Below, in pieces: positions 20,648 to 44,031 of a stretch of 64,000 nt of DNA. The notes beneath the pieces are model-generated. The model worked only from the letters and a program-made list of their open reading frames with translations, ran no database searches and had not been told where the DNA came from. Where the stretch lies: positions 1 to 64,000 of the forward strand of contig PDTD01000014.1 in assembly GCA_002748755.1 (NCBI GenBank), read 5' to 3'. The translations under genes were made by a program, and so were the position numbers. How positions within the stretch are numbered: position 1 is the first letter of the stretch; each line of letters opens with the position of its first letter. The DNA is from Desulfobulbus propionicus. Its GTDB lineage: Bacteria > Desulfobacterota > Desulfobulbia > Desulfobulbales > Desulfobulbaceae.

Positions 20648-20805
20648 GGTTTTGTACTTGTAAATATGGTTGAGGGTAACTGGAAAATAGTCCTAATGTA
20701 CACGTTTATATATTTGAGGCGACAATAAAATGCTTTTTCGGGTAGTCAATTTATTTCCAAGAACCTACATCTAGGGCGTAAAATGTTGATTTTTAGTGAC
20801 TATCT

Positions 20806-21005
20806 AGCCCGGATATCTCATGAGCATTTTGTTTTGTTTGAGAAAAATAAGATAAAAAGAGGTGTATGACCTGTTCGGAAAGACGGCTCACATTTCAACC
20901 TAATGTTCAGCAAAGGGTGATCTAGGGGTTACCGTTTTTGGCAGTTTTTTTGGCAACACATATATCCAAGTAGAACGAGTGATCCAAAAAATCCAGACCT
21001 GTTAA
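20806..21005 (+). repeat. MITE-like intergenic repeat, 3'-truncated copy
   Basis: It starts AGCCCGGATATCTCATGAGC, the best left end in the window, followed by TTTTGTTTTGTTTGAGAAAA. Family core elements continue (CTCACATTTCAACCTAATG, GGCAACACATATATCCAAG) and homology fades near 21005. The rest of 20648-21069 is unremarkable. Confidence 0.75.
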
Positions 21006-21069
21006 AGCATCCCAATTGGCAGTGTTTACTGAAAAAAAGGAAAAAAAGAAACTGCCAAGGAGATAATCA

Positions 21070-21291
21070 TTGCTTGTGATACTGATCCTCTTCCAGAGGA
21101 TGCTGATTGGTTATGAAGAGGCGCAAGGGGCTATAGATAGACGGAAAAATTGTGAACGGGCTTTCAATTTTATGAAAAATCGGCAAGGCTTGGAGCTGGT
21201 GAGGGTCCGGTTTCAGCATGCCCTGATGGGGCGTGTGAGGTTTACCATGATCGCTAGCCTGCTCGTTGAAATAACTGGATGTGCCGTTTAA
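21070..21291 (+). pseudogene. Transposase C-terminal fragment (IS1634/IS4-like)
   Basis: The translated segment YEEAQGAIDRRKNCERAFNF continues MKNRQGLELVRVRFQHALMG and VRFTMIASLLVEI. This resembles the Y(x)R...ExxF..LKN..(x)RVR.....GR...FIAxL pattern around the catalytic Glu of DDE transposases. Only about 70 residues survive and the remaining domains are absent. The family call is tentative. Confidence 0.5.
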
Positions 21292-21395
21292 AATGATAAA
21301 GAACGACCTCAACAACTTGAACAGCTGTAACCAATCACGGGGTCTGTATTTCTGCGTTTCTCTCTACTTCTGAGGTGTAACTGGTTACGGGTGTT

Positions 21396-21650
21396 TCAGA
21401 AGTGTTCTTTTTTTTTTGGAGGCAGAGAGGTTTCGCCCTTTTCCCCCGGTTTCAAAAGCATGACTCGGCAGGCTCGGTCTTTCAGATTACCGTTTACCTG
21501 ATACCAGTCCCACTGGGTACAAAGGACCCTGGATAGAGCTGTACGTCCCTGATCCCAATACATGGTGGCCCGTGTCAAGAGCTTCCTGGTCGATGATACG
21601 ACCCCGTATTTGATAAATTTGAGTTTCTCTTCTTTGGCAAATACCTTGGC
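21396..21650 (-). pseudogene. DUF4338 (DruA-like) protein fragment
   Basis: Two overlapping minus-strand frames together read IYQIRGRIIDQEALDT, then ALSRVLCTQWDWYQVNGNLK and DRACRVMLLKPGEKGETSLP. This is the N-terminal pattern of DUF4338 proteins (R.LS..LC..W.W...NG.LKD..CR.LLLKL...G.I.LPP). They include DruA of the Druantia defence system and stand-alone mobile relatives. A frameshift near 21580 and the missing remainder mark it as a decayed fragment. Confidence 0.55.
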
Positions 21651-21682
21651 AGGCCGTTAATATGACTGCGAAAGCCATTGCA

Positions 21683-22021
21683 TTACGCAAAGAGTTGTCT
21701 GTACATTTCATCGTTGTAGCCAACGATGACCATGTTGCCGATAACCAAGGTCGGTGCCCGCAGGGAGCCGCTTCTGCCGAGAGACAGCTTGAGAATTTCC
21801 TCCTGGTTGTCACTTGAGGGGGTGAAACGGGAGATTTTTTTGCCCCTACCGATGAGGATTTCATGGGCAGAAGCGAGAATTTTCCAAGCCCCTTCCCGGT
21901 CTATTTTTTCTTTGCGCGCCTCAACCGCAGCGGTAATCGCAATCTTTTTTTCCGTCAACACAGCCTGTGCTTTGGTACAGGATGTTCACCCTTTTCTAAG
22001 GTAGGCCCAGTCTATGGTCAT
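21683..22021 (-). CDS. ArsC-family selenoprotein with in-frame UGA (UxxC motif)
   Basis: From ATG 22021, preceded by AGGGAAG, the frame reads TIDWAYLRKG, a TGA codon (21986-21988), then TSCTKAQAVLTEKK and on to a normal stop. Read through, the 112-residue product has the thioredoxin-fold ArsC/Spx-like pattern: a UxxC (CxxC) motif after the first strand, IGRGKKISRF, and SGSLRAPTLVIGNMVIVGYN. A stop-based call would begin at GTG 21961 and lose the redox site. The conserved redox context and tRNA-Sec at 43934 favour selenocysteine over nonsense. It is probably a thiol oxidoreductase; its partner is unknown. Confidence 0.85.
21957..21971 (-). promoter_or_regulatory. Candidate bacterial SECIS hairpin
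   Basis: Twenty nucleotides after the UGA the mRNA can form AGCACA / UGUGUU (one G-U pair) around a GGC loop, so a G opens the apical loop as in known bacterial SECIS elements. The distance is in the usual range. A competing stem, CCUGU / ACAGG, also exists, so this is tentative. Confidence 0.4.
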
Positions 22022-22588
22022 TGTTTCTTCCCTGTTTGTCGATCTGTTCAAGCGGTCAGGATTTTGTCGTTTTTGAGGTACCTTTGTACCCCAGCCAGAT
22101 TGACCGCAACAAGTATGACCATGCTCAGTTTCGGGGGTGAAGAGCATAGCCGACTCCCGTCAGTGGTCCAGGATGCCCCTTGACGACTTTTTTGTTTTCT
22201 GCCAAAAAACGCTGTATTTTGTACTTATACCACATTTTATTTCGTATTGAAACAGGATGCGTTCAACATTGAGCACGTCCTCCAGGGAGGCGAAGTGGGG
22301 TGCCAGGATGGTCTATTGGTTCAGGTTGTGTCAGGTTTGGTTGTTTTTATGGCGAACATACACGTAGCTTGTTGGATGTGCAGGAGGTCATGAAGATACG
22401 CAACCGGGTTCGATGGTACCGGACGCATGCCATGTGGTTCAACGAGCCTGGTCGTTTTCCTCCCTGTGAAAAAAAGCCGAAAAAGAGTATACAACCTATG
22501 CTATGCATAATATGTGTCCATCCGGACAACCGGCAGGTCAAGGGCTGTATGGAAATGTAATCCTATCAAGGAGTATCAAGGAGGCATC
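22022..22588. other. Intergenic spacer, no gene seen
   Basis: This 567-bp spacer between divergent genes holds short open frames on both strands with no recognisable domain or good start site. I see no transposase homology. Confidence 0.4.
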
Positions 22589-43933: not shown

Positions 43934-44031
43934 GGAAGTGGAAAGGGCACTGGTGGCTCTCCCGGACTTCAAATCCGGTGTGGGGGGTTAATGGCCTCCC
44001 AGGTGGGTTCGATTCCCATGCACTTCCGCCA
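43934..44031 (+). tRNA. selC: tRNA-Sec (anticodon UCA)
   Basis: The 98-nt gene has the features of bacterial selC: GGAAGTGG acceptor strand, anticodon loop CTTCAAA in a CCGGA / TCCGG stem, a long variable arm, T-arm GTGGGTTCGATTCCCAT and an encoded GCCA end. By my pairing, seven acceptor pairs are Watson-Crick and the eighth is G opposite G. It inserts selenocysteine at UGA with SelB, which is not in the window. A selenoprotein gene is at 21683. Confidence 0.95.

Follow-up and report, generated by a model that had tools for sequence, protein, structure and literature searches.

Does the UGA that interrupts a minus-strand reading frame in Desulfobulbus propionicus end a gene, or does it encode selenocysteine (Sec), and if so, in what kind of protein? 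The frame lies between positions 21,683 and 22,021 of a 64,000-nucleotide stretch (positions 1 to 64,000 of contig PDTD01000014.1, assembly GCA_002748755.1; hereafter the window). Our preferred reading, to which we give a probability of roughly 0.7, is that it is a genuine selenoprotein gene of the NCBIfam family NF041106 and that its product serves as a small reductase of the thiol-disulfide (glutaredoxin-like) type. The selenoprotein part of this reading, in which we infer actual Sec incorporation, is almost certain when taken alone, and it draws among other things on a UGA that is present at the same site in all 41 distinct family proteins that we collected.

An earlier note on this stretch had proposed a hidden ArsC-family selenoprotein that starts at ATG 22021 behind AGGGAAG, reads LRKG-UGA-TSC and continues for 100 more residues to a normal stop, and each of these elements is found as stated: from ATG 22021 the frame runs MTIDWAYLRKG-UGA-TSC, with the TGA as codon 12 and 100 codons after it before a TAA ending at 21683. 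Stop-based calling, as the note foresaw, yields a single call, the 92-residue open reading frame (ORF) from GTG 21961 to 21683, and annotation of that kind would truncate the gene and lose its active site. The word hidden holds for such callers only, because NCBI has a curated NF041106 model. The features of the locus and of its decoding are these:

21683..22021, minus strand: ArsC/Spx-like selenoprotein gene (NF041106), 112 residues, Sec at residue 12, TAA stop
21986..21988, minus strand: in-frame UGA, decoded as Sec, which opens the U-T-S-C motif (UGA in 41/41 distinct members and 23/23 pattern matches)
21977..21979, minus strand: Cys15, presumed resolving residue of UxxC (Cys in 40/41 distinct members, Ser in one)
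21957..21971, minus strand: SECIS-like hairpin AGCACA-GGC-UGUGUU, 6 bp (family-level constraint and shape; in the window alone not significant)
22027..22033, minus strand: AGGGAAG upstream of the ATG, a probable ribosome binding site by its sequence
43934..44031, plus strand: tRNA-Sec (ARAGORN; Rfam RF01852, 74.4 bits at 43934-44027)

The read-through product matches NF041106, 'ArsC family (seleno)protein' (ArsC_rel_Se_1), with 125 bits over its full length against a cut-off of 85, and it has the Sec or Cys that this family requires as the first residue of an N-terminal UxxC or CxxC (codon 12 being UGA and residue 15 Cys). The gene is an additional member of an already catalogued selenoprotein family; the evidence backs the selenoprotein reading, which is not new.

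The UGA is conserved in every member collected. Searches with peptide patterns in which the Sec residue was omitted retrieved 14 relatives, all 14 of them with UGA at the Sec site, and a profile search of 395 genomes of the phylum placed 28, including the window's own, above the family cut-off, with one in-frame TGA in 28 of 28 matches (eight weak matches below the cut-off were not counted as members). Both searches pooled give 42 genes; with two rows dropped, L031 (whose protein is identical to that of L012) and L030 (a copy of the window gene itself), the distinct proteins number 41, the window's included. UGA is present in 41 of 41, as is the motif LRAP, and 40 of 41 have a Cys at the third residue after the Sec site. 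A pattern in which the site may be any TGN codon found matches in 23 of the 395 genomes, with 23 TGA and 0 Cys codons, and its reversed control gave 0; it misses six of the 28 above-cut-off genomes because their motif differs, and genome G168, found by this pattern only, was kept out of the 41. Among viral contigs, 17 stretches matched a pattern, none of them a relative. The first active-site Cys of the Spx CxxC aligns with the UGA, where the earlier note had placed the first Cys of thioredoxin-fold relatives; its proposed check of homologues at this position returns Cys in Spx and UGA in all family members collected. Between the window gene and its nearest relative, L001 from Desulfogranum japonicum (78% identical), nonsynonymous divergence (dN) is 0 over the 11 upstream codons and 0.17 over the 100 downstream, and synonymous divergence (dS) exceeds 1 on either side of the UGA and is hence near saturation. 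The sequence on both sides of the UGA is translated and under purifying selection.

The main evidence for a Sec insertion sequence (SECIS), which is independent of any choice of structure, comes from permuting synonymous codons within each gene, folding 30-nt segments and averaging the z scores. Mean z over the 41 genes is −1.27 at +6 and −1.52 at +15 after the U of the UGA, and it lies between +0.30 and −0.55 in the remaining 32 segments (40 or 41 genes each); across the family, the excess of RNA folding over the synonymous expectation is focused immediately 3' of the UGA. We assigned two hairpin groups by eye, of 12 and 29 genes, the 12 being chosen by GCA CAG GNT GTG after the UGA. Within the 29-gene group, the stem formed by nucleotides 19-26 and 30-37, counted from the U of the UGA, has 18 double-changed cells where shuffles give 8.1 and 0 of 500 reach 18, and five pairs changed on both sides (11 of 500 shuffles), with further pair types unexceptional (75 of 500); three of its genes, L033, L034 and L037, fit a tetraloop better, one position off the counted stem. 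The 12-gene group, which includes the window, has GCACA-GGN-UGUG with the loop one codon closer to the UGA. Invariance of that motif is no test, because the 12 were picked by it, though GCA makes up only 28 of 138 other Ala codons in these genes and a branch of the protein tree, with support (90/80) that is not firm, separates the 12 from the rest. The sole variation in the nearly invariant stem is G-U versus G-C at one pair.

Most of the machinery for Sec is present. The window's own genome encodes a full-length SelA (599 bits) and a SelD (357 bits) with its own in-frame UGA, read as KAAGUAAK (L061, G000:C31:122022-122963), and the tRNA-Sec that the earlier note had reported on the same contig lies inside the window, at 43934 on the plus strand. 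Together with the NF041106 match, the alignment to the Spx CxxC and the conserved UGA, these genes bear out the proposal of an ArsC-family selenoprotein with a UxxC motif.

Its function, by our preferred reading, would be that of a disulfide reductase. SelB, directed by the hairpin just 3' of the UGA, would insert Sec at codon 12, and the 112-residue product would adopt an Spx/YffB/ArsC-type thioredoxin fold with UxxC as its redox centre. The selenolate of Sec12 may then attack an oxidised protein or a low-molecular-weight disulfide, Cys15 would resolve the intermediate, and thioredoxin or another thiol system would regenerate the enzyme. We infer the redox chemistry, the substrate class and the electron donor alike as the most likely ones. 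The predicted fold is thioredoxin-like and nearest to Spx/YffB, and a Pfam glutaredoxin match stays below its cut-off.

Several observations weigh against this reading. The fold matches are modest (Foldseek template modelling scores of only 0.51-0.56 to Spx), two of the five AlphaFold models are poorer (predicted local distance difference test, 76-77), and no neighbouring gene indicates a substrate. One family member, L039 in genome G052, has UASS in place of UxxC, and the second Cys is not universal. The candidate stem with a GGC loop that the earlier note described is present, with the triloop beginning 20 nt past the UGA, but it does not exceed chance in the window alone: the 60-nt stretch has a dinucleotide-shuffle z of −0.41 and a minimum-energy fold that differs from the named hairpin, the synonymous z is −0.55, and in four stretches it ranges from −0.25 to −1.43. 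The hairpin is unremarkable by itself and convincing only at the family level, where covariation is also partial: only 67.7% of cells in the 29-gene stem pair, and the sliding controls are mixed and weaken the case (partner at +1, 13 double-changed cells and likewise five pairs; at +3, 14 cells against 18; at −1, 66.8% of cells pairing against 67.7% in register). Finally, a profile search of the window's own 90.66% complete assembly returned no selB above the cut-off, and the SelB of a genus-mate, used as a query, gave only partial matches, the best of which (at 140 bits, with 38% identity across residues 3-350 and a frame of 407 residues) we read as EF-Tu from its length and place. selB is otherwise common, in 338 of the 395 phylum genomes, in 6 of 6 near relatives tested and in 27 of the 28 above-cut-off genomes, the exception being the window's own.

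The missing selB counts in favour of an alternative in which the UGA is an ordinary stop and translation of the real product begins at GTG 21961, or in which the gene has decayed to a pseudogene. The end branch of the window protein (0.25 against 0.042 for its sister L001, though the tree median is 0.24) and the size of its genome (2.0 Mb against 4.8 Mb in the genus-mate G088) also lend this some support, and selB and bioF are both undetected in the smaller genome. Yet the assembly has full-length selA, tRNA-Sec and a UGA-containing selD while being 90.66% complete, and a gap in it is therefore a likelier explanation for the missing selB than loss in a smaller genome. The earlier note had counted absence of selA/selB/selD as refuting; with selB undetected this applies in part, although selA and selD are there and a gap is the likelier reason for selB. 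With an identical UGA in 41 distinct members, conserved residues upstream, purifying selection on both sides and RNA constraint at the family level, a stop or decay is most improbable.

A real selenoprotein might instead act on transcription, as a redox-sensing regulator of the Spx kind that binds to RNA polymerase and whose switch gains sensitivity from Sec. Spx proteins are indeed the best relatives by structure and sequence. The Spx/MgsR model TIGR01617 scores 29.1 bits against a cut-off of 75.05, however, the window protein has 112 residues against 120-132 for the Spx chains listed, and its modelled middle region forms a beta-hairpin at residues 54-66, where Spx is helical; we consider this role unlikely. 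A second, more Spx-like type of UxxC selenoprotein was also seen, in L044 (1468-1809) and L045 (1486-1830), with SRUTTC and QKUTTC, LIRRP and scores below the NF041106 cut-off; against TIGR01617, one reaches 80.0 bits and the other, at 72.7, falls just under.

The family name invites a further possibility, reduction of arsenate or another oxyanion, and it is joined by a match to ArsC in Pfam, whose 16.1 bits stay under the gathering cut-off of 24, and by ArsC structures, distantly related, among the fold matches. ArsC has an arsenate-binding Arg just before Pro, and CxxS rather than CxxC. The alignment with Spx, by which this position was fixed, sets the Ala of LRAP, found in 41 of 41 members, against the Arg of LRRP, and the list of 13 NCBIfam families with E up to 1 does not include TIGR00014 (arsC). 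An oxyanion reductase is accordingly very unlikely in our view, and thiol-disulfide reduction is preferred.

A bolder extension is that NF041106 is, within the Spx/ArsC superfamily, a branch that exists with Sec only and constitutes a selenol reductase of its own kind, in which Cys is unable to replace Sec, marked by the invariant LRAP, a beta-hairpin in the middle of the model and a SECIS loop that has shifted by one codon from one group of relatives to another with its function kept. The 23 TGA and 0 Cys codons in the phylum sample speak for this idea, which we hold only tentatively and consider doubtful on balance. A 2026 review (PMC13188914) enters NF041106 in its Table 1 as 'Arsenate reductase-like protein', a UxxC selenoprotein, with reference 61, which we take, from its position just before entry 62, for PMC2398784, a marine metagenome study of 2008. 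In that study, the row 'Arsenate reductase 2' (cd03032, UxxC) gives 42 selenoproteins and 238 Cys homologues; the row may be NF041106 or the more Spx-like L044/L045 type, and if it is the former, the Cys homologues count against a Sec-only family, as does a search limited to one phylum. A literature search that included the available parts of both papers turned up no functional study of the family.

Gene neighbourhoods give no common partner. We clustered the flanking ORFs of the 42 loci by BLAST, with flanks of at most 1.5 kb, and some much less, in L016-L043, and with Pfam naming for representatives in L001, L007, L008 and L010 (the other loci being named via the clustering). A conserved partner gene was rejected, as only lineage-specific neighbours emerged, and short flanks could hide partners. 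Of the clusters, the two that span most loci (25 and 22) were discarded, as were several smaller ones, since they consist of minus-strand ORFs that overlap or adjoin the gene or other genes. A bioF-like gene lies directly downstream in 9 of 42 loci, followed by a bioG-like gene in six (L001, 5311-7186); the L001 BioF scores 412 bits in TIGR00858, slightly below the cut-off of 426.45, and its BioG takes its name from Pfam alone, NCBIfam giving nothing at E up to 1e-5. A comparison with the L001 ORFs showed no trace of bioF next to the window gene, and in its own genome bioF is matched with 27.6 bits at best. Other neighbours are a topoisomerase/gyrase A-like protein upstream in eight loci, an NFACT protein downstream in seven, a rhodanese-rubrerythrin protein downstream in five, a pyridine nucleotide-disulphide oxidoreductase upstream in three and an Mg-chelatase-like protein directly downstream in three (L010, L036 and L040), with a cluster member of the last about 3.5 kb upstream in L013. 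In the window, roughly 1 kb downstream of the gene (20648-21682) holds short ORFs only, followed by a tyrosyl-tRNA synthetase gene.

Overall, a family that appears strictly Sec-dependent in the phylum sample offers a good test case for what selenium provides beyond sulfur. Set beside known systems, the window protein matches NF041106 over the full length and shares its UxxC and its single Sec, with no separating difference found. With Spx/YffB (6ghb, 3ihq and 1rw1) it shares the predicted thioredoxin fold and the position of the CxxC, and it differs in having Sec for Cys, LRAP for LRRP and a modelled beta-hairpin for a helical middle region. Glutaredoxin-type arsenate reductase ArsC is a distant relation by fold, from which the window protein is set apart by UxxC in place of CxxS and, going by the Spx alignment, by an Ala where ArsC has its Arg ahead of Pro.
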